DNA of 64,000 nucleotides, taken from contig NZ_QTJY01000001.1 of the NCBI RefSeq assembly GCF_003703975.1, positions 186,001-250,000 of the forward strand, read 5' to 3'. Made by a program: the position numbers and the translations under genes. The DNA is from Larkinella soli (GTDB lineage Bacteria; Bacteroidota; Bacteroidia; Cytophagales; Spirosomataceae). Below, piece after piece: positions 1-8,634 of the stretch; the first letter of the stretch is position 1; the number at the start of each line of letters is the position of its first letter. Under the pieces are notes generated by a model. The model was not told where the DNA came from. It worked only from the letters and a program-made list of their open reading frames with translations, and did no database searches.

Positions 1-719
1 TCGTCGATGGAGTCGATGACGCCGTCGTGGTCGCGGTCGTCGGTTTCGTCCAGCGTGCCGGTCTGAAACCAGAACCGGAGCCCGGGCCAGGAGGTGCCCT
101 TGCGGACCAGGGCGTGCATGATCCGATCATCGTCGGTATAGCCTTCGTTCAGCCCTTTCTGCCGCCACCAGAAAGAGCCGGAAAAGGCCCCCGCTTTCCG
201 AAACTGGCTGGGGTGATTCCAGACCAGGTCGAACGCCGACAAACCGCCCAGCGAAAAGCCGGCGAAAACCGATCGTTCGGGGTCGTCTGTGATCCGGTAA
301 TGTTTTTTTACATACGGGATCAATTCATGAAGGACAAATTCGGAATACCGGCCGGCTTTGGAACCCCGGTGCAGGTAATCGGCCTGGGCCGCCACCCCGT
401 ATTCCTGAATCCGGTCCCCGGCATGAATGGCCACCAGCACGAAGGCACGAACCCGTCGTTCCCGAAACATCGAATCGAGAACGGCCGCCATCCGGAGCCG
501 TTCGAGGTCCTGTCCGTCATTAAGATACAGGACGGGAAGCCCTTCACCGGAAGACGAATAACCCGGAGGCAGGATCACTTCCAGAACCACCGGCCGGTTT
601 AAATATGCCGATACCAGCCCCTCGTCTTTCCGGACCGAAAGTCCCTGACCGGACGCATCGACCGCAGTTAAAAATTCACCCATACCCATCAGAGACCATA
701 GAAACCAGATGAATTTCAT
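1..719 (-). CDS. Secreted esterase, alpha/beta hydrolase fold (esterase D / enterochelin esterase-like), 3' end cut off
   Basis: The frame opens at the ATG at 719 and runs off the left edge with no stop, so the C-terminus is missing. The first ~20 residues (MKFIWFLWSLMGMG...) are hydrophobic and look like a signal peptide, so the enzyme probably acts in the periplasm or outside the cell. The text then reads as a putative-esterase family protein: an early beta-strand segment ending LPVLYLNDGQD, and the nucleophile elbow A-G-F-S-L-G-G followed by FDLVWNHP. The catalytic Asp/His region lies at or past the window edge. Substrate cannot be told. It is transcribed away from the rightward hydrolase gene at 855, with a TAnnTTTG promoter between them. 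Confidence 0.85.
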   Translation of the reverse strand, partial: MKFIWFLWSLMGMGEFLTAVDASGQGLSVRKDEGLVSAYLNRPVVLEVILPPGYSSSGEGLPVLYLNDGQDLERLRMAAVLDSMFRERRVRAFVLVAIHAGDRIQEYGVAAQADYLHRGSKAGRYSEFVLHELIPYVKKHYRITDDPERSVFAGFSLGGLSAFDLVWNHPSQFRKAGAFSGSFWWRQKGLNEGYTDDDRIMHALVRKGTSWPGLRFWFQTGTLDETDDRDHDGVIDSID

Positions 720-757
720 TCCGGTCGGTTTAAGGTTTAGAATCTTTTGAAAAGCCC

Positions 758-765
758 CAAAAATA
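758..765 (-). promoter_or_regulatory. Bacteroidota -7 element for the esterase gene
   Basis: On the minus strand this reads TATTTTTG, a full match to the TAnnTTTG -7 element of Bacteroidota, 39-46 bases upstream of the ATG at 719. Confidence 0.5.
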
Positions 766-854
766 GCGAGTCTTTTCTTGTAAATTACCAATAATGGTTA
801 TCTTTCCCACTGATTCAATAGATTTCAGGGTTCCATTTAACCTCCATCAACACC

Positions 855-1559
855 TTGCAGGAACAATACAGGAAATGGTATTCGCACCACCTCGGTCGGG
901 ATATTGAAATGCTGGTTTTCGGTCACTGGGGCTATCCGGTGCTGCTTTTTCCTACCACCATGGGGCGGTATTACGAAGCGAAGGATTTCAAACTGACCGA
1001 ATCCGCCCGCTGGTTCCTCGACTCGGGCAAAATTAAAATTTACTGCATCGACAGCATCGACCGCGACAGCTGGTACGCCAAACACCTTCACCCGTCCGTC
1101 CGGATCCAGAACCACCTCTGGTACGACCGCATGGTGAATGAGGAACTGATTCCCTGGATTCAGCACGAATGCCAGGTCGGAAAAATCGCCGTCGGCGGGT
1201 GCAGTTTCGGGGGCTTTCAGGCCCTCAATTTCGCCTTCCGGCACCCCGAAAAAGTGGCCCATCTCTGGAGCATGGGCGCAGCCTTCGACATCCGGTCGTT
1301 CATGAGCGGCTATTACGACGACAACGTCTATTTCAACAACCCGCCGGATTATATCCCCAACGCCCACAACGACCATTTTTACCGGATGCGGATCGTGCTG
1401 GGCACTTCGGAACACGATTTCTGCAAACCGGAGAACTACCGGATGTCGGAGATTCTCAACCGCAAGGGCATTCACCACTGGCTCGACGTCCGGCCCTGGG
1501 GAGAACATGACTGGCCGGTTTGGCGGGAAATGTTTCCGCATTATCTTTCCACCCTTTGA
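855..1559 (+). CDS. Esterase-like alpha/beta hydrolase (COG4947-type)
   Basis: A 234-residue cytoplasmic hydrolase with no signal peptide. The nucleophile elbow is G-G-C-S-F-G-G and a late His sits in the WGEHDWPVW segment, so a Ser-His-Asp machinery is plausible. The opening (QYRKWYSHHLGRDIEMLVFGH) is typical of the conserved bacterial COG4947 esterase-like group, so I keep the TTG at 855 as start; the next in-frame ATG would remove this conserved part. A near-consensus -7 element (TAGATTTC, 819-826) lies about 30 bases upstream. It is 29 bases ahead of the DinB gene and heads a rightward run that continues into the amidoligases. A role as hydrolase or thioester/ester partner of those ligases is inference. 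Confidence 0.8.
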   Translation: MQEQYRKWYSHHLGRDIEMLVFGHWGYPVLLFPTTMGRYYEAKDFKLTESARWFLDSGKIKIYCIDSIDRDSWYAKHLHPSVRIQNHLWYDRMVNEELIPWIQHECQVGKIAVGGCSFGGFQALNFAFRHPEKVAHLWSMGAAFDIRSFMSGYYDDNVYFNNPPDYIPNAHNDHFYRMRIVLGTSEHDFCKPENYRMSEILNRKGIHHWLDVRPWGEHDWPVWREMFPHYLSTL

Positions 1560-1588
1560 GAATCCATTCCTAAACACGCAACACGACG

Positions 1589-2068
1589 ATGGCTCCCGTC
1601 AAAGGATATTGGGAACAGCCGGGCCAGTTCAACGAGGCCCTAGTGCAGCTCCGGACCGTCATCCGGGAATTACCGGAACGCGTCAAGGCGCTCACCACCG
1701 ACGAGATGATGGCCCGCGAACCCGGGAAATGGTCAAAAAAGGAGGTGCTGGGGCACCTGATCGATTCGGCGCTCAACAACCTAAAACGATTTTCGGACGC
1801 CCAGACTCAGCCTTCCCCGTACCGGCTGCAGCCGTATGACCAGAACCGACTGGTGGAAATCAACCGCTACCAGGACCTTTCCCTCGACCACCTCCTGGTC
1901 CTCTGGCAGGCCCTGAATCAGCAAATCGTGTACGTGGTGGAGATCATGGCCGAAACCGAGCGCCGGAAGGAGGTGGCGTTGCCGGGGGCCGGGGAGCGGG
2001 TGACGCTCTCCTGGATTTTCGAGGACTATGTGGGCCATCTGGAGCATCATTTGAAGCAGATTTTTTAA
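1589..2068 (+). CDS. DinB-superfamily (DinB_2) protein
   Basis: A 159-residue four-helix-bundle protein of the DinB/YfiT-like superfamily. The family signature is visible as KWSKKEVLGHLIDSA near residue 50 and the C-terminal GHLEHHLKQIF, which supply the His residues that usually bind a metal ion. Family members include bacillithiol- and mycothiol-dependent transferases and many proteins of unknown function. It sits 29 bases behind the esterase-like gene and 71 bases before the first ATP-grasp gene. If it belongs to the same transcript it could be a metal-dependent transferase of the pathway, but the 71-base gap leaves this open. Confidence 0.85.
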   Translation: MAPVKGYWEQPGQFNEALVQLRTVIRELPERVKALTTDEMMAREPGKWSKKEVLGHLIDSALNNLKRFSDAQTQPSPYRLQPYDQNRLVEINRYQDLSLDHLLVLWQALNQQIVYVVEIMAETERRKEVALPGAGERVTLSWIFEDYVGHLEHHLKQIF

Positions 2069-2139
2069 CATTTAAGGCTTCCTTTCGCTTTTAACACACA
2101 TCACTTACCAACGACGGAGAACGGTTCTCCGGTTATCTT

Positions 2140-3219
2140 ATGAAGAAGATCGGTATTCTTTTCGGCCAGGAAAACACGTTTCCGCAGGCTTTCGTGGATC
2201 GCATCAACAGCAAGGGCCTCAGCGACATAACGGCCGAGTTCGTCACTATCGACAAGGTCGTTCAGGGAGAAGCCACCGAATACGCCGTCATCATCGACCG
2301 GATTTCCCAGGATGTTCCGTTTTACCGGGCCTACCTGAAAAATGCGGCCCTGACCGGGACGGCCGTCATCAACAACCCTTTCTGGTGGAGCGCCGACGAG
2401 AAATTTTTTAATAACTGTCTGGCTACCAGGCTGAATGTTCCGGTTCCAAAAACCGTTCTGCTGCCATCCAAAGACCGGCCGGACGATACCAACGAAAACT
2501 CGTTCCGGAACCTGAAGATGATGGACTGGGATTATATCTTTAACTATATCGGTTTTCCGGCCTATATGAAACCGCATTCGGGCGGGGGCTGGAAAAGCGT
2601 CTATAAAGTCTACAACCCGGAGGATCTCTGGAAAAAATACGAGGAAACGGCCCAGCTGGTCATGCTGTTTCAGGAGGAGATCGTGTTCGACGATTATTTC
2701 CGCTGTTACTGCATCGGCGGCAAGGACGTTCGGATCATGCCTTATGAACCCCGCAACCCGCATCACCTCCGGTATGTGGCCGAACCCAAAGCCACCGGTG
2801 ATGCGTATAAAAGGCTCATGACGACGATCAAAAATTACGTCGTCGCGCTGAACAGGGCGCTCGGTTATGATTTCAATACCGTCGAATTTGCGGTTCGGGA
2901 CGGCATTCCCTACGCCATCGATTTCTGCAACCCGGCCCCGGACGCCGACGTATATTCGGTCGGGCAGGAGAATTTCGAATGGGTGGTGGAAGCGGCCGCC
3001 AACATGGCCATCGAGCGGGCCAGAGCGCAAAAACCGGGACAGGACAACCTGACCTGGGGCTCGTATGTCCAGCATTCCGCCCGGGGTCAGATGTTCACCC
3101 CCGGCCTGAGCGAACCTCAGGAAGGCGAAAAGCCGAAAAAGGTGAAAAAGGAAAAGTCCGAAGATCACAAGCCTAAAAAAGACGAAAAGAAAAACGCCAA
3201 AAAGGCCAAAAAAGCCTGA
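2140..3219 (+). CDS. ATP-grasp ligase (RimK-like) with lysine-rich tail
   Basis: A 359-residue ATP-grasp enzyme, predicted to activate a carboxylate as acyl-phosphate and couple it to an amine or thiol. Visible parts: an N-terminal pre-ATP domain (KKIGILFGQEN), the nucleotide Lys144 followed by a Gly-rich loop (SGGGW, 147-151), and the metal-binding tail EFAVRDG...AIDFCNPAPD near residues 246-270. The last 32 residues (328-359) hold 15 lysines and no obvious fold. First of four tightly spaced ligase/amidotransferase genes (27, 37 and 17 base gaps). Substrate is unknown; the cluster suggests a small peptide or amide metabolite, or modification of a protein. Confidence 0.85.
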   Translation: MKKIGILFGQENTFPQAFVDRINSKGLSDITAEFVTIDKVVQGEATEYAVIIDRISQDVPFYRAYLKNAALTGTAVINNPFWWSADEKFFNNCLATRLNVPVPKTVLLPSKDRPDDTNENSFRNLKMMDWDYIFNYIGFPAYMKPHSGGGWKSVYKVYNPEDLWKKYEETAQLVMLFQEEIVFDDYFRCYCIGGKDVRIMPYEPRNPHHLRYVAEPKATGDAYKRLMTTIKNYVVALNRALGYDFNTVEFAVRDGIPYAIDFCNPAPDADVYSVGQENFEWVVEAAANMAIERARAQKPGQDNLTWGSYVQHSARGQMFTPGLSEPQEGEKPKKVKKEKSEDHKPKKDEKKNAKKAKKA

Positions 3220-3246
3220 GCCGTCCACTGCCTTAGCCCTACACTC

Positions 3247-4344
3247 ATGCCTGTTTTCACACTTGGAATAGAAGAAGAATTTCAGACGATCGACCCCGAA
3301 ACCCGCATGCTCCGCTCCCACATGTCCAAGATCGTGGAGGGCGGGCAGATTACGCTCCAGGAGCGGGTAAAATCCGAAATGCACCAGGCCGTGGTGGAGG
3401 TGGGGACCAATATCTGCACCAATATTCACGAAGCCCGAAACGAGGTGACTTTCCTCCGCCGGATGATCAGGGACCTGGCCGACAAGCAGAATCTGCGGAT
3501 CGCGGCCGCCGGAACCCATCCCATTTCCGACTGGCAGGACCAGCTCATCACCGACAACGAGCGTTACGACAAACTCATCGACGAGATGCGCGACGTGGCC
3601 CGTTCGAACCTGATCTTCGGCCTGCACGTACATGTCGGGATCGAAAACCGGAACGAGGCAATCCAGATCATGAACGCCGTGCGGTATTTTCTACCCCACA
3701 TCTACGCCCTTTCGACCAACTCGCCGTTCTGGTGCGGACGCAATACCGGCTTCAAGTCCTACCGCTCGAAGGTGTTCGATAAATTTCCGCGGACGGGCAT
3801 CCCCGACTATTTTGCCTCGGCCGCCGAATACGACGACTACGTCAACCTCCTGGTGAAAACCGGCTGCATCGACAACGGAAAGAAAATCTGGTGGGACATC
3901 CGCCTGCATCCCTTTTTCGATACCATCGAATTCCGGATCTGCGACGTGCCGATGCGGGTGGAGGAAACGCTTTGCCTGGCCGCCCTCATGCAGTCGCTGG
4001 TCGCCAAGATTTACAAACTACACCGGCAGAACCTGAATTTCAGGCCCTACCGCCGGCTCCTGATCAACGAAAACAAGTGGCGGGCCGCCCGCTATGGGAT
4101 CGAAGGCAAACTGATCGATTTCGGGAAACAGGAAGAAGTGCATTACCATGCCCTGGCCCGTGAATTGCTGAACTTCGTGGACGATGTGGTCGATGAGCTG
4201 GATTGCCGGAAAGAGGTGGAATACGTCAATACCATTCTGGAAATGGGCACGGGCGCCGACCGCCAGCTGGCGGTTTTCCGGCAGACCGAGGACCTGAAGC
4301 GCGTCGTCGATTACATCGTTGAGGAAACTTCTCACGGATTGTGA
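3247..4344 (+). CDS. Carboxylate-amine ligase, glutamate-cysteine ligase 2 family (YbdK-like)
   Basis: A 365-residue member of the GCS2/YbdK family, whose fold is related to glutamine synthetase and which forms amide bonds to a carboxylate, classically the gamma-carboxylate of glutamate. The family start GIEEE is at residues 7-11, the metal/ATP-site FGLHVHVGI has His127 and His129, and EFRICD occurs about two thirds along. Length is normal for the family. Lying between an ATP-grasp enzyme and a glutamine amidotransferase, it would supply a second amide-forming step. True glutamate-cysteine ligase activity is possible, but the neighbouring genes do not match a standard glutathione pathway. Confidence 0.88.
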   Translation: MPVFTLGIEEEFQTIDPETRMLRSHMSKIVEGGQITLQERVKSEMHQAVVEVGTNICTNIHEARNEVTFLRRMIRDLADKQNLRIAAAGTHPISDWQDQLITDNERYDKLIDEMRDVARSNLIFGLHVHVGIENRNEAIQIMNAVRYFLPHIYALSTNSPFWCGRNTGFKSYRSKVFDKFPRTGIPDYFASAAEYDDYVNLLVKTGCIDNGKKIWWDIRLHPFFDTIEFRICDVPMRVEETLCLAALMQSLVAKIYKLHRQNLNFRPYRRLLINENKWRAARYGIEGKLIDFGKQEEVHYHALARELLNFVDDVVDELDCRKEVEYVNTILEMGTGADRQLAVFRQTEDLKRVVDYIVEETSHGL

Positions 4345-4381
4345 GAGTTATCCTTTCAGTCTCCAATCTTTTTTACCCAAA

Positions 4382-5221
4382 ATGAATCCATTGAAAATTG
4401 CCGTTCTGGACCTGAACAACAACCATCCCAACGAGGGGATGCGCTGTATTCTTCAGTTGGTCCGGAATACGTTCGAAAGCGAGCACATTCCCATCGAACT
4501 CCGGGTGTATAACGTCCGGGGGGCCAATGAAATCCCCGACCTGACCTACGACCTGTATGTGTCTAGCGGGGGGCCGGGAAGTCCCCTTCCCACCGACGAT
4601 CCGTGGGAAGGGCGGTTTTTTTCGCTCATCGACCAGATTTTTGCCCATAACCGGGTCAGTACACGAAAAAAATACCTGTTTCTGATCTGCCATTCGTTCC
4701 AACTGGTTTCCCGCCATCTGGGCATCGGCACCATCAGCCTGCGGAAGTCGCCGTCTTTCGGGATTTTTCCGATTCATAAAACCGACGACGGCCACTCCGA
4801 ACCGCTTTTCAAGGCGCTGCCCGACCCATTTTTCGCGGTCGACTCCCGGAGTTACCAGCTTACCGCTCCCCACTGGGAACGCATCGGTCAACTCGGCGCT
4901 CAGGTGCTGTGCCTCGAAAAAATTCGGCCCAACGTGCCCTTTGAACGGGCCATCATGGCCGTGCGGTTTACCGGGGAAGTGTTTGGAACGCAGTTTCACC
5001 CGGAGGCCGACGGGGAGGGCATGCTCCGCTATTTCATGACCGAGGAAAAGAAACGGCAGGTCATCGAAAATTACGGGGAGGGGAAATTTCAGGACATGGT
5101 CGACTCGCTGCTGGACCCGGACAAAATCGCTCTGACGGAATCCGTCCTTCTGCCCTCCTTTCTGCGACAATCCGCTTTCCGGCTGATCAACAAACCGGTG
5201 GAGCGGCCCCAGGAAGTTTAA
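4382..5221 (+). CDS. Class I glutamine amidotransferase-like protein
   Basis: Start is set at the ATG at 4382 (MNPLKIAVLDLNNN); the open frame extends upstream to 4319 but overlaps the previous gene and adds nothing conserved. The 279-residue product has the class I GATase layout: an early SSGGPGSP oxyanion segment, the nucleophile Cys103 in LICHSFQL, and His206/Glu208 in TQFHPEAD. The usual elbow is G-x-C-x-G; here the Gly after C-x is Ser, so the oxyanion hole differs. It could release ammonia for a ligase next door or hydrolyse a gamma-glutamyl amide. Spacing (37 bases before, 17 after) puts it in the same operon. Confidence 0.83.
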   Translation: MNPLKIAVLDLNNNHPNEGMRCILQLVRNTFESEHIPIELRVYNVRGANEIPDLTYDLYVSSGGPGSPLPTDDPWEGRFFSLIDQIFAHNRVSTRKKYLFLICHSFQLVSRHLGIGTISLRKSPSFGIFPIHKTDDGHSEPLFKALPDPFFAVDSRSYQLTAPHWERIGQLGAQVLCLEKIRPNVPFERAIMAVRFTGEVFGTQFHPEADGEGMLRYFMTEEKKRQVIENYGEGKFQDMVDSLLDPDKIALTESVLLPSFLRQSAFRLINKPVERPQEV

Positions 5222-5238
5222 ACACAAACGACGCACGT

Positions 5239-6429
5239 ATGATTCGGGACATTCGTCAGGCCTATAACCAGGCCTTCAGTCAGGAACGTTACCAGGTCTT
5301 TCTGGATCAGATTCAGCACGATTATCCGGGTCAGCTGGAATTCCGGGTGGCCGAAACGCCGGTTTTCGTGCCCCGGCTCCTGAAGGAACGGCTGATCGAA
5401 GCCTGTGAATCAATCGTCGATACCCTGACCGCCGAATCGTTCAAGGAGTGGACCGAACAGGCCATTCCGGCCCACCAGCGGGTTCCGAACGAAGACGGCC
5501 ACCCGTCCTTTGTCGCCATCGATTTTGCCGTATGCCAGGATGCCGACGGCGAGCTGACCCCCCAGCTTATCGAGTTGCAGGGCTTTCCGTCGATCTTCGG
5601 GTTTCAGAGCTACCTTTCCGAGAACTACCGCCGGTTTTTTCCGATCCCGGACGGATTCAGTTACCTCTTCCATGTCGATTCGGTCGAAACGTACCGGCAG
5701 CACCTCCGACGCCTGGTGTTGGGTCTGGAGCAGCCTGAAAACGTGATCCTGCTTGACATATTCCCGGAGAAGCAGAAAACCCGGATCGACTTTGCCGCGA
5801 CGAAGGATCTGCTGGGCATCGAGCCGGTTTGCCTGACCAAAATCCGGAAGGAAGGCCGGAAGCTCTATTACGAAAAGGACGGCCGGTCTTACCACATCCA
5901 CAGGATCTACAACCGGCTGATCTTCGATGAGCTGGAGTCGATGCACGACCTGAAGACGGCGTTTCACCTGACCGACGACGTGGACGTCACCTGGGTAGGC
6001 CATCCGAACTGGTTTTTCCGGATCAGCAAGTACATCCTGCCCCTGCTCGAAAGTCCCTATGTCCCGAAAAGCTACTACCTGAAAGACCTCGAAAAGTACC
6101 CGGAAGACCTGGAGAATTATGTGTTGAAACCGCTGTTCTCCTTCGCCGGCAGCGGAGTCCGGCTTTCGGTGACGAAGGAAGACCTCAATGCCGTCACCGA
6201 CCGGGAGAACTTCATCCTCCAGCAAAAAGTAAAATACGAACCCGTCATCGAGGCCCCGGACGGCCCGGTGAAATGCGAAATCCGGATGCTGTACATCTGG
6301 CACGACAAAGACCCCCGGCCCATGCTGATCACCAACCTGGCGAGGCTCAGCCGGGGCGAAATGATCGGCGTTCGGTTCAACAAGGATTTCGACTGGGTCG
6401 GGGGTTCGACCTGCTTTTTCGAGAAATAA
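5239..6429 (+). CDS. Circularly permuted ATP-grasp enzyme, uncharacterised
   Basis: The 396-residue product resembles the glutathionylspermidine-synthase-like, circularly permuted ATP-grasp proteins. The acidic metal-binding strand (Glu112 and Gln114 in QLIELQGFPS) comes before the nucleotide-binding part, where Lys297 and the loop FAGSG (302-306) are followed by NFILQQKVKYEP and the basic KCEIRMLY strand. This order is the reverse of the RimK-like enzyme at 2140. It is the last gene of the run and ends a few bases before a strong inverted repeat. It probably makes the second or final amide bond of the product. I do not recognise a named family. Confidence 0.75.
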   Translation: MIRDIRQAYNQAFSQERYQVFLDQIQHDYPGQLEFRVAETPVFVPRLLKERLIEACESIVDTLTAESFKEWTEQAIPAHQRVPNEDGHPSFVAIDFAVCQDADGELTPQLIELQGFPSIFGFQSYLSENYRRFFPIPDGFSYLFHVDSVETYRQHLRRLVLGLEQPENVILLDIFPEKQKTRIDFAATKDLLGIEPVCLTKIRKEGRKLYYEKDGRSYHIHRIYNRLIFDELESMHDLKTAFHLTDDVDVTWVGHPNWFFRISKYILPLLESPYVPKSYYLKDLEKYPEDLENYVLKPLFSFAGSGVRLSVTKEDLNAVTDRENFILQQKVKYEPVIEAPDGPVKCEIRMLYIWHDKDPRPMLITNLARLSRGEMIGVRFNKDFDWVGGSTCFFEK

Positions 6430-6434
6430 AATAT

Positions 6435-6459
6435 GTCCGGATCATTTTCCGATCCGGAC
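6435..6459 (-). terminator. Hairpin between convergent genes
   Basis: Perfect 9-base arms GTCCGGATC / GATCCGGAC around a 7-base loop. On the minus strand it is followed by a T-rich stretch (ATATTTTATTT), so it looks like a terminator for the leftward gene ending at 6442, whose TGA lies inside the hairpin. It may also stop the rightward operon. Confidence 0.6.
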
Positions 6460-7341
6460 CTGATAGCTGATATACGGGAAAGGACTCGTCCGAATCAGGC
6501 CGTCCGTCGAATAAACCGGCATCAACAGGGCCGTATCGAAGGAATGCCGCCGGCGGTTGAACCGCAGCCCGGCCGACGAAAGGCCGCTCAGGTAGGTCAG
6601 GTTCGGTTCGATGGCCTCTCCGACCAGAATGTTATTCTGGCTGATGAAGGTCAGGTCCGGGGTAATCTTCCGAACATACCCGATCGTAACGACGCCCGAA
6701 GAGGCAATGCCCCGGACGGAGAACGTAGTTCCGAAGCCGACCGTAATGTTCCGCTCGGCATCCCCCATGGTAACCAGCCCCTGGGCCAGCCCGAATCGGG
6801 TCAGAATCCGCTCCGTCACCCGCAGACCGATGTACTGCACGCTCAGGGCCACCTGCGTGCGCGGAGCCAGTTTGGAGCTGACTTTCGTGGAAACCGTAAA
6901 GAAGTTTTGCGGACTCAGGGTCTGAAACCCGGCACCCACACTCCAGTTGCTGGTGATGCCGACGTCTACCCGGCTGAAAAGCACGTAACTGTTCTGGAAA
7001 TAAATCTTTTTCTTTTCCAGCGGCAGGGCCGTCGGCATGAAAAACAGGCGGAAGGGAAATCCGTTCGGATGGTCGGGACCGCTGCGCAGGGTGCCGCCCA
7101 CGAGGTCGGCCCGGACGATGTCTCCGGCCTGGACGATCCGGTCGCCGTGGGCTTTGGTCCGGATCAGGTAAGCCGAACTGTCGCTGCGGACCAGCTGGCC
7201 GCGCAGCAAAGTGCCGTCTTTCAGTTGGAAATCGTAAGTTCCGGGAATGTGGGCCCGTCCAGGTTCGTAATAAATCTCCTGTGCTTCAACCGCCGAAAAT
7301 CCGAAAACGCTCCAAAAAAGTAACAGGTAGATTAGCTTCAT
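6442..7341 (-). CDS. Secreted or outer-membrane beta-rich protein, unknown function
   Basis: A 299-residue protein with a clear signal peptide (MKLIYLLLFWSVFGFSAVEAQE). The next ~70 residues contain TYDFQLKDGTLLRGQLVRSDSSAYLI, reminiscent of short beta modules seen in Bacteroidota surface proteins. The remainder alternates hydrophobic and polar residues (VGAGFQTLSPQNFFTVSTKV, ITVGFGTTFSV) and ends in an aromatic-rich strand (YISYQVRIGK), as expected for a small outer-membrane beta-barrel. I do not recognise a named family. It stands alone, convergent with the amidoligase operon and divergent from the aminotransferase. Confidence 0.7.
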   Translation of the reverse strand: MKLIYLLLFWSVFGFSAVEAQEIYYEPGRAHIPGTYDFQLKDGTLLRGQLVRSDSSAYLIRTKAHGDRIVQAGDIVRADLVGGTLRSGPDHPNGFPFRLFFMPTALPLEKKKIYFQNSYVLFSRVDVGITSNWSVGAGFQTLSPQNFFTVSTKVSSKLAPRTQVALSVQYIGLRVTERILTRFGLAQGLVTMGDAERNITVGFGTTFSVRGIASSGVVTIGYVRKITPDLTFISQNNILVGEAIEPNLTYLSGLSSAGLRFNRRRHSFDTALLMPVYSTDGLIRTSPFPYISYQVRIGK

Positions 7342-7410
7342 AGGCAGACTGGTATCGTAAAGTACGAAAGTTAATAAAGTAACCGATTCGGCTCAAGCAT
7401 TTAAACGTTG

Positions 7411-7418
7411 TATTTTTG
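7411..7418 (+). promoter_or_regulatory. -7 promoter element of the aminotransferase gene
   Basis: TATTTTTG matches TAnnTTTG exactly. Transcription would start near 7425, so the true start codon must lie downstream, which favours the TTG at 7441 over the upstream TTG at 7408. Confidence 0.6.
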
Positions 7419-7440
7419 TACAATTAACCGGATTTTTATT

Positions 7441-8634
7441 TTGAATACCACCCAGCTTTTAACGCAGCGTCAGCTCTTTTTCCGGCACGTTGCCCAAACG
7501 TCCGATTTTCCGCTGGCCCTCGAGATCGAACGGGCGGACGGAATTCACCTCTACGACACCGACGGAAAGCGGTATATGGACCTGATTTCAGGGATCGGTG
7601 TCAGTAACGTGGGCCACCGCCATCCGCGCGTTCTGTCGGCCATTCAGGAGCAACTCGACAAGTATCTGCACCTGATGGTGTATGGGGAATTTGTGCAGAC
7701 CACCCAGGTGCAACTGGCTCAGGCCCTGGCCCAAACGCTCCCGGAGCCTTTGTCTGCCGTATATTTTACCAATTCGGGTACGGAAGCCATCGAAGGGGCG
7801 ATGAAGCTGGCGAAACGGTTCACGGGCCGGTCGGAAATCGTCTCCTGCTTCAACGCCTACCACGGCTCCACCCAGGGCGCCCTTTCCCTTTCAGGCAGTG
7901 AAAATTTTAAACGAAATTACCGCCCTCTCCTGCCCGGCATCCGGCACATCCGGCACGGAGACGAAGCGATGCTGTCCGGGATTACCGGACAAACGGCTGC
8001 GGTGATTATGGAAGTGGTGCAGGGGGAAGCCGGCGTTCGCATCCCTCAACAGGCTTACCTGGAACTGGTCCGGAAACGGTGTTCGGAAGTGGGCGCGCTC
8101 CTGATCTTCGACGAGATTCAGACCGGATTCGGCCGAACCGGCACCTTCTGGGCATTCGAGGGGTACGGCCTCGTTCCGGATGTGGTCGTATGCGCCAAAG
8201 GAATGGGGGGCGGCATGCCGATTGGAGCCTTCATCAGTTCCCCGGAAACCATCGGTGTGTTCCGCAACAATCCCATCCTGGGCCACATCACTACCTTCGG
8301 CGGCCACCCGGTTTCCTGCGCGGCCTCCCTGGCCACTCTCCAGGTCATCCGGGAGGAAAAACTTTACCAACAGGCCGAGGCCAAAGGGCAGTTGTTCAGG
8401 GACTTACTGGTTCATCCGGCCATTCGGGAGGTGCGGGGTAAAGGGCTGATGATGGCCGCCGAATTCGAATCGTTCGGGACGCTGAAACCGGTGATCGACC
8501 GCGCCATCGAACGGGGCGTCATTACCGACTGGTTCCTGTTCTGCGACAATTCCATGCGAATCGCTCCCCCGCTGATCATCACGGAGGAGCAGATTCGGGA
8601 AGCCTGCGGTCTTATTCTGGAGGCTATTGGATAG
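7441..8634 (+). CDS. Class III PLP-dependent aminotransferase (acetylornithine/GABA-type)
   Basis: A 397-residue enzyme when started at the TTG at 7441; the open frame reaches back to 7408 but that part overlaps the promoter. Features are those of fold-type I class III aminotransferases: SGIGVSNVGHRHP near the N-terminus, the FTNSGTEAIEGAMKLA phosphate-binding region, FDEIQTGFGRTG, and the PLP Schiff-base Lys253 in VCAKGMGGG. It would transfer an amino group from an omega-amino or similar donor to 2-oxoglutarate. Exact substrate (acetylornithine, ornithine, GABA or other) cannot be decided; no arginine-biosynthesis genes are adjacent. The last 11 bases overlap the convergent efflux adaptor gene. 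Confidence 0.9.
   Translation: MNTTQLLTQRQLFFRHVAQTSDFPLALEIERADGIHLYDTDGKRYMDLISGIGVSNVGHRHPRVLSAIQEQLDKYLHLMVYGEFVQTTQVQLAQALAQTLPEPLSAVYFTNSGTEAIEGAMKLAKRFTGRSEIVSCFNAYHGSTQGALSLSGSENFKRNYRPLLPGIRHIRHGDEAMLSGITGQTAAVIMEVVQGEAGVRIPQQAYLELVRKRCSEVGALLIFDEIQTGFGRTGTFWAFEGYGLVPDVVVCAKGMGGGMPIGAFISSPETIGVFRNNPILGHITTFGGHPVSCAASLATLQVIREEKLYQQAEAKGQLFRDLLVHPAIREVRGKGLMMAAEFESFGTLKPVIDRAIERGVITDWFLFCDNSMRIAPPLIITEEQIREACGLILEAIG

Follow-up and report, generated by a model that had tools for sequence, protein, structure and literature searches.

A pair of ATP-grasp ligases forms the recurrent core of a predicted amide-forming gene cluster in Bacteroidota

Introduction

What does a bacterium make with three amide-forming ligases of different fold or topology that are encoded side by side with a glutamine amidotransferase (GATase)-fold protein and an esterase? 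This question is raised by a locus of Larkinella soli, for which we analysed a window of 64,000 nucleotides (contig NZ_QTJY01000001.1 of assembly GCF_003703975.1, positions 186,001 to 250,000) from a genome of 6.9 Mb. The original prediction, made from the letters of this window, had proposed a four-gene core for the stepwise synthesis and trimming of a peptide-like or gamma-glutamyl metabolite. We found that the genes recur together across many Bacteroidota families and that, judged from sequence, their invariant core is a pair consisting of a RimK-like classical ATP-grasp ligase (R) and a circularly permuted (CP) ATP-grasp ligase, which appears to be inherited on an all-or-none basis across the sampled Bacteroidota. 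With a probability of roughly 0.55, we read the cluster as a cytoplasmic pathway, independent of non-ribosomal peptide synthetases, in which a small peptide-like amide is assembled from carboxylates and amines.

As a class, amidoligase gene neighbourhoods already feature in earlier predictions. Iyer and co-workers described glutamine synthetase (GS)-fold and GCS2-like ligases together with GATase-like thiol peptidases, for which glutathione-related or other peptide metabolites were predicted (2008; PMC2588565, in the part of the paper available to us). That theme is shared with the present cluster, whereas the GCS2-like families of those neighbourhoods differ from the one found here, as far as the same part of the paper goes. 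As far as we checked, an obligate pair of R with either of two interchangeable CP ligases has not been described, and among the matches listed in a search of the open literature we recognised no experimental study of this gene set.

Results

Six open reading frames (ORFs) lie on the plus strand between positions 855 and 6429 of the window:

855..1559, plus strand: esterase (alpha-beta hydrolase) with a TTG start and a GxSxG motif; PF00756, 42.9 bits (cut-off 22); frequent member
1589..2068, plus strand: DinB/YfiT-like protein; PF12867 (DinB_2), 48.4 bits (cut-off 24.8); accessory, lineage-specific
2140..3219, plus strand: RimK-like classical ATP-grasp ligase (R), by predicted fold; core member
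3247..4344, plus strand: GCS2/YbdK-type carboxylate-amine ligase; PF04107, 220.7 bits (cut-off 21)
4382..5221, plus strand: class I GATase-fold protein with a Cys104-His207-Glu209 triad; PF00117, 29.5 bits (cut-off 22.8)
5239..6429, plus strand: CP ATP-grasp ligase, family C, with the glutathione synthetase/GspS/YgiC fold; core member

The ORF calls bear out the single-strand arrangement with gaps of 17-71 bases that had been described for these genes, the individual gaps being 29, 71, 27, 37 and 17 bases if the ATG at 4382, the aligned start of the GATase family, is taken as the start of an ORF that itself spans 4319-5221. The domain identities claimed for the six genes also held, four of them through Pfam scores above the cut-off and those of R and C through their folds. 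The three ligases therefore do differ as proposed, comprising a GS-fold GCS2 protein, a classical ATP-grasp and a CP ATP-grasp enzyme, and they are accompanied by a GATase fold with an intact triad. As had been stated, no carrier protein or peptide synthetase is visible, and no gene for a non-ribosomal peptide synthetase or a precursor fits inside the cluster. A gene for a small carrier of the LysW type does not fit the 17-71 base gaps either; this negative extends neither to flanking ORFs of fewer than 60 residues, which were left uncalled, nor to the rest of the genome, where no search for LysW was made. The closest named relatives of the locus are from Larkinella species, whose family C proteins are 75-77% identical.

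To determine which genes belong together, we searched 198 whole Bacteroidota genomes with the R, GCS2, GATase and C proteins and obtained matches in 72, 62, 53 (50 of them strong) and 60 genomes, respectively. All four occurred together in 34 genomes and R, GCS2 and C in 20 more; the remaining patterns were R and GATase (7), R, GATase and C (4), R, GCS2 and GATase (4), R alone (3), GCS2 alone (2), GCS2, GATase and C (1), GCS2 and C (1) and none (122). The proposed four-gene core thus exists as a frequent combination, but not as an invariant one. We defined an R-core set of 69 genomes with R at ≥50% identity, dropping three distant matches (33-42% identity). Every one of the 69 carries a CP ligase, either of family C or of a second family, X, and the only two genomes in which C occurs and R does not are G144 and G154. 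Of the 69 genomes, 58 also encode GCS2 and 49 GATase, so that GCS2, GATase and the esterase are frequent but dispensable members. Fisher tests gave p-values of 7e-34 (R and C), 2e-37 (GCS2 and C) and 1e-51 (R and C or X), all of which ignore the relatedness of the genomes.

The association does not depend on physical clustering. In 15 genomes from four families (f21, f23, f26 and f27), R, GCS2 and C are all kept, with none of them within 6 kb of another. Because R and the CP ligase stay together even where their genes are dispersed over the chromosome, we take them to serve one pathway with a definite product. Two genomes of one genus also speak for the association, the first (G072) having R, GCS2, GATase, C and the esterase and the second (G166) none of them. 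The dispersed copies of R, GCS2 and C, judged by eye, showed no common neighbour theme. In two dispersed-gene families, the R gene directly follows a gene that we named, by eye, an LpxH-like phosphoesterase (L143, position 3896, and L144, position 5563).

The order of the genes was surveyed in 70 of 80 loci, each named and at least 15 kb long, that had been selected for C. Besides C, present in all 70 by selection, they contained GATase (69), GCS2 (62), R (46) and the esterase (45). The order esterase-R-GCS2-GATase-C with all five genes was found in 45 of the 70 loci, 41 of which hold them within 6.5 kb. Among Spirosoma, the loci that we examined have R and the esterase apart from the other cluster genes. 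Overall, the grouping exceeds chance, with co-occurrence and order recurring across many Bacteroidota families. One locus (L061), on a contig titled Flavobacterium sp. SUN052, has a cluster and flanks like those of Fibrisoma and Spirosoma, with 65% identity, and is possibly mislabelled or contaminated.

Protein C is barely recognisable by sequence models. Its Pfam hit to GSP_synth, the curated glutathionylspermidine synthetase family (PF03738; 17.5 bits, cut-off 29.3, E = 0.0026), is below the threshold, and its best hidden Markov model (HMM) match, YgiC, is not significant (E = 0.036). Its AlphaFold model, with a predicted local distance difference test score (pLDDT) of 93.4, matched 19 chains in Foldseek at E ≤ 0.001 (2.7e-15 to 1.6e-8), all of which are glutathione synthetases, glutathionylspermidine-synthetase-like proteins or Cp1B; the likenesses comprise 3n6x, yeast and human glutathione synthetase, homoglutathione synthetase, GspS, YjfC and fungal Cp1B. 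Because all of these matches fall in one superfamily, we assign C to the circularly permuted ATP-grasp enzymes. All 32 C sequences compared share Lys264, Lys297, Gly304, Gly306, Asp95 and Glu112, and C probably binds ATP.

The second family was recognised in eleven genomes that have R and GATase but no C, in which another CP ATP-grasp protein, X, of about 450-507 residues (five loci read), is encoded between R and GATase. A search with X gave strong matches in those 11 genomes and in one further genome (G137, 35% identity) and weak matches in 14 others. X and C are colinear and very distant (hhalign E = 0.004, probability 8-9%), which suggests that the CP ligase exists as two very distant families. 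X keeps the R-x-D and E-x-N motifs, with Arg117, Asp119, Glu133 and Asn135 invariant in five sequences.

R reached no relevant Pfam model, and its score for the NCBIfam family TIGR00768 (rimK_fam) was 28.2 bits, far under the cut-off of 143.4, so that it falls outside the curated RimK family. Its predicted fold is that of Ddl, LysX and RimK, with resemblance to Ddl, ArgX/LysX and graspetide ligases, and its ATP-grasp residues are mostly near-invariant in 34 sequences, three distant relatives deviating. LysX/ArgX, RimK and graspetide ligases thus have a fold in common with R, whereas no gene for a carrier or a precursor lies within the R cluster. The C-terminal tail of R (approximately residues 320-359) is rich in Lys and Ala, resembles histone H1 and is modelled with low confidence; among relatives, it varies from absent to more than 100 residues and is Lys/Ala-rich in many Cytophagales. 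Together with the RimK-like fold and the sub-threshold NCBIfam hit, this tail would fit protein or peptide tagging, in which R would add residues to a protein (its own Lys/Ala tail or, as RimK does, a ribosomal protein) and the hydrolases would remove them. We regard tagging as very improbable: many members have a short tail or none, and the neighbourhood survey, in which ORFs shorter than 60 residues were not called, revealed no constant protein partner.

The GCS2 protein scored 571.4 bits against the NCBIfam carboxylate-amine ligase model PRK13515 (cut-off 371), and Glu9 and Glu11 of the GhExE signature, taken from the available part of PMC2588565, are invariant in 30 sequences. In the GATase-fold protein, Cys104, His207 and Glu209 (numbered on the translation from 4379) and the GGPG loop do not vary among the 27 sequences compared.

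Two roles can be considered for the GATase-fold protein. It may act as a hydrolase in the trimming of gamma-glutamyl amides or others like them, an assignment we put at even odds, or it may feed ammonia to the CP ligase in a glutamine-dependent synthesis of a terminal amide, which seems to us doubtful. With its intact triad, the protein would be suited to ammonia supply, and its gene is a neighbour of C in 27 of the 39 genomes in which both occur, and of X in 11 of 11. On the other hand, the gene lies elsewhere in 12 of the 39 and is missing from 20 genomes with R, GCS2 and C, and glutaminase activity is not assured because the weak HMM hits of the protein in the PDB include homoserine succinyltransferase. 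In two lineages without GATase (G055 and G093; loci L117, 7348-8367, and L120, 8296-9324), an M29 peptidase occupies its place between GCS2 and C, which supports the hydrolase assignment. As a general substitute, the M29 peptidase was not supported, with close homologs in G055 and G093 only.

The esterase at 855-1559 has Ser117, Asp188 and His218 kept in 16 or 17 of 17 rows. Homologs (E < 1e-30) were found in 79 genomes, namely in all 69 R-core genomes and in 10 of the 129 others, at which stage the esterase was a candidate for an obligate member. A tree of 89 matches removed it from this position, showing two clades that were split with a local support of 1.0 in one run and 92/100 in another. 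The clade of the window's esterase holds all 34 esterases located within 2.5 kb of R and is represented in 44 genomes of the R-core set and in six outside it; in the remaining 25 of the 69, all the esterases belong to the other clade, no member of which lies near R. From these sequences, the esterase appears to be a frequent partner that is not proven obligate. The host genome carries a second paralog, 34% identical (L224; G000:C1:514084-514809).

DinB, counted among the cluster members by the original prediction, did not hold up as a constant part. It occurs in 8 of the 70 named loci, in the place seen in the window in seven (Larkinella and Rudanella) and as a distant opposite-strand relative in the eighth (L110), and was therefore rejected as a core member. 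We keep it as accessory because a single ORF (L124, 11963-13525) fuses a second PF00756 esterase to a DinB/mycothiol-S-transferase-like domain (DinB_2, 77 bits).

Three further genes flank the cluster:

1..791, minus strand: second, divergently transcribed PF00756 esterase, 106.9 bits (cut-off 22), whose ORF runs 153 bases past the left window edge
6442-7341, minus strand: protein without Pfam match, with related ORFs in 16 of the 70 named loci
7408..8634, plus strand: class III aminotransferase, ArgD-like (below the argD cut-off); possible lineage-specific member

The gene inventory of six stands, with the divergently transcribed esterase at the window edge having been missed. A start near 722 would give the latter a signal-peptide-like N terminus, as judged by eye, and similar ORFs occur in about 50 of the 120 loci compared. 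The ArgD-like gene was found in 39 of the 70 named loci; it follows C within 500 bases in 17 and lies behind the minus-strand gene in 16, and in L064 and L078 it abuts or overlaps C by tblastn boundaries. Six class III aminotransferases were found in the host genome, none of which reaches the argD cut-off.

Outside Bacteroidota, our protein searches covered plasmid records, among which neither R nor C had a match; 63 viral stretches matched a pattern, and none encodes a relative of R. Carriage of the cluster by mobile elements or viruses was therefore rejected within the reach of these searches. The esterase matched 15 plasmid records, four of which were inspected. It directly follows an ATP-grasp_4 gene, without full-length similarity to R, in Peptoclostridium and Pararhizobium and does not follow an ATP-grasp gene in Thiodictyon; the Rhizobium record was unannotated, and its ORFs were read by eye. 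X matched 25 records, and four were inspected: the relative adjoins an ATP-grasp gene in Streptomyces (L160) and a gene annotated as biotin-carboxylase-like in Sinorhizobium, lies approximately 2.6 kb from an ATP-grasp gene in a second Streptomyces record (L163), and has no ATP-grasp gene shown near it in Pantoea, where the locus is cut by the record end. GCS2 matched 72 plasmid records. Judged from these very small samples, the pairing of an esterase with a ligase, and that of a CP with a classical ligase, may be more widespread.

Discussion

The cluster is better supported as a pathway than the original prediction could know, and its core differs from the one proposed. In the pathway that we favour, free carboxylates and amines would be joined by successive ATP-dependent acyl-phosphate ligations. 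GCS2 would attach a gamma-glutamyl group to an amine, an amino acid or amine would be added at the carboxyl end by the CP ligase, and R would contribute one more residue. The GATase-fold protein would then remove the gamma-glutamyl group or another amide (or, less likely, supply ammonia to the CP ligase), and the esterase would release or recycle an ester or amide intermediate. The product would be a small soluble metabolite and not a ribosomal peptide; the order of the steps and all substrates are guesses.

Several observations weigh against this scheme. GCS2 is missing from 11, GATase from 20 and the window's esterase clade from 25 of the 69 R-core genomes, so that the steps proposed for them (addition of the gamma-glutamyl group, trimming and release) must be dispensable in some genomes. 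The frequent adjacency of GATase and the CP ligase fits an ammonia-supplying pair, the M29 replacement was seen in two genomes only, the other 18 genomes with R, GCS2 and C but no GATase having no close M29 homolog, and one esterase (L112) has lost its Ser and His. The active site of C adds a further point. The names of the RxD...ExN residues come from Cp1B, and their placement in C rests on hhalign colinearity with X and on what we take to be the residue spacing of human glutathione synthetase. At the position of the Arg of RxD, two residues before Asp95, none of the 32 C sequences has Arg, the residue being Ala, Gln, Val, Thr or Ile, and at the Asn of ExN all 32 have Gln (Gln114). The corresponding residues of Cp1B (R139, D141, E163 and N165) are needed for activity, according to the available part of PMC12568646. 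Lacking this Arg and carrying Gln for Asn, C may not perform the standard chemistry, and it may differ in how the ligation step is stabilised.

The combination of GCS2 with a ligase of the eukaryotic glutathione synthetase fold raises the alternative of a glutathione-like thiol, in which GCS2 would make gamma-Glu-Cys, C would complete a tripeptide as in plants, and the esterases and DinB would act on S-conjugates. DinB/YfiT-like proteins indeed belong to a family of bacillithiol and mycothiol S-transferases. Our genome search for glutathione synthetase used the GSH-S_ATP model, eukaryote-type synthase models not being among those searched, and gave matches at E < 1e-50 in 12 of the 198 genomes, of which only 3 are among the 69 R-core genomes. 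Weaker matches bring the number above the cut-off to 87 of 198, including one of 63.8 bits elsewhere in the host genome (G000), and would favour a thiol if they were synthetases, but they may be other ATP-grasp proteins. C itself matched no Pfam glutathione synthase model at E ≤ 0.1, so that a Glu-Cys ligase candidate is present in the cluster and a recognisable synthetase is not. Because a strong GshB-type match occurs in so few core genomes, plain glutathione synthesis is unlikely, and we rejected it in view also of the missing RxD Arg and ExN Asn in C; the expectation that the ligases are not plain glutathione-pathway enzymes was thus upheld as far as tested. For a glutathione-like thiol in the wider sense, the absence of GCS2 from 11 of 69 genomes and the obligatory third ligase R are further difficulties, and another thiol is probably present anyway because BshC was found in 196 of the 198 genomes, with or without the cluster. 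This near-universal presence also makes BshC uninformative for a bacillithiol link, which was dropped. We consider a thiol product quite unlikely. Eukaryote-type glutathione synthetases and fungal Cp1B share the fold of C and are standalone amide-forming ligases, whereas C is only 12-15% identical to them over the fold alignment, has active-site substitutions and keeps other gene company. For Cp1B, this activity has been shown in the E-64 pathway (PMC12568646, available part).

A peptidyl-polyamine conjugate is a second alternative, in which the CP ligase would join a gamma-glutamyl peptide to a polyamine and the GATase-fold protein and an aminotransferase would recycle it in the manner of PuuA, PuuD and PuuE. 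In the Puu gamma-glutamyl-putrescine pathway, a GS-fold ligase puts a gamma-glutamyl group on, and a class I GATase-fold hydrolase (PuuD) takes it off, with a class III aminotransferase (PuuE) as a further enzyme. The present cluster would have this put-on/take-off logic in common, whereas the families differ, and its two ATP-grasp ligases lack a Puu counterpart. The ArgD-like gene, located close behind C in 17 of the 70 named loci and separated from it by one further gene in 16, is consistent with such a conjugate pathway, as are the nearest fold and HMM relatives of C, which include GspS-like proteins and YgiC/YjfC, the latter cited as peptidylpolyamine synthetases in the available part of PMC12568646. 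GspS, YgiC and YjfC have the same CP ATP-grasp fold as C, and YgiC aligns at the regions of Lys264 and Lys297, whereas C lacks the RxD Arg, has Gln for Asn and shows no significant sequence match to them. Moreover, none of the constant neighbours could be recognised as a polyamine gene, the ArgD-like gene was seen in only part of the named loci, and the fold does not fix the acceptor because glutathione synthetase and Cp1B have it and use amino acids. On balance, we hold a polyamine conjugate to be rather unlikely.

It is possible, and we suggest it only tentatively, that the genes define an undescribed small-molecule pathway shared by many Bacteroidota, perhaps for a cofactor, protectant or signal, which would combine R with a glutathione synthetase-fold ligase in two interchangeable forms, C using a modified ligation chemistry after the loss of its Arg. 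The partner esterase may itself act in transfer or release and be paired with ATP-grasp ligases in more than one phylum. The two ligases are kept as a unit of inheritance in 69 of the 198 sampled Bacteroidota genomes, or roughly one in three, and most of these genomes add GCS2, the GATase-fold protein and the esterase. Relatives that carry the cluster include strains of Hymenobacter, Spirosoma, Dyadobacter, Runella and Larkinella, and because the gene list is defined and present in such genera, the proposed pathway is directly testable.

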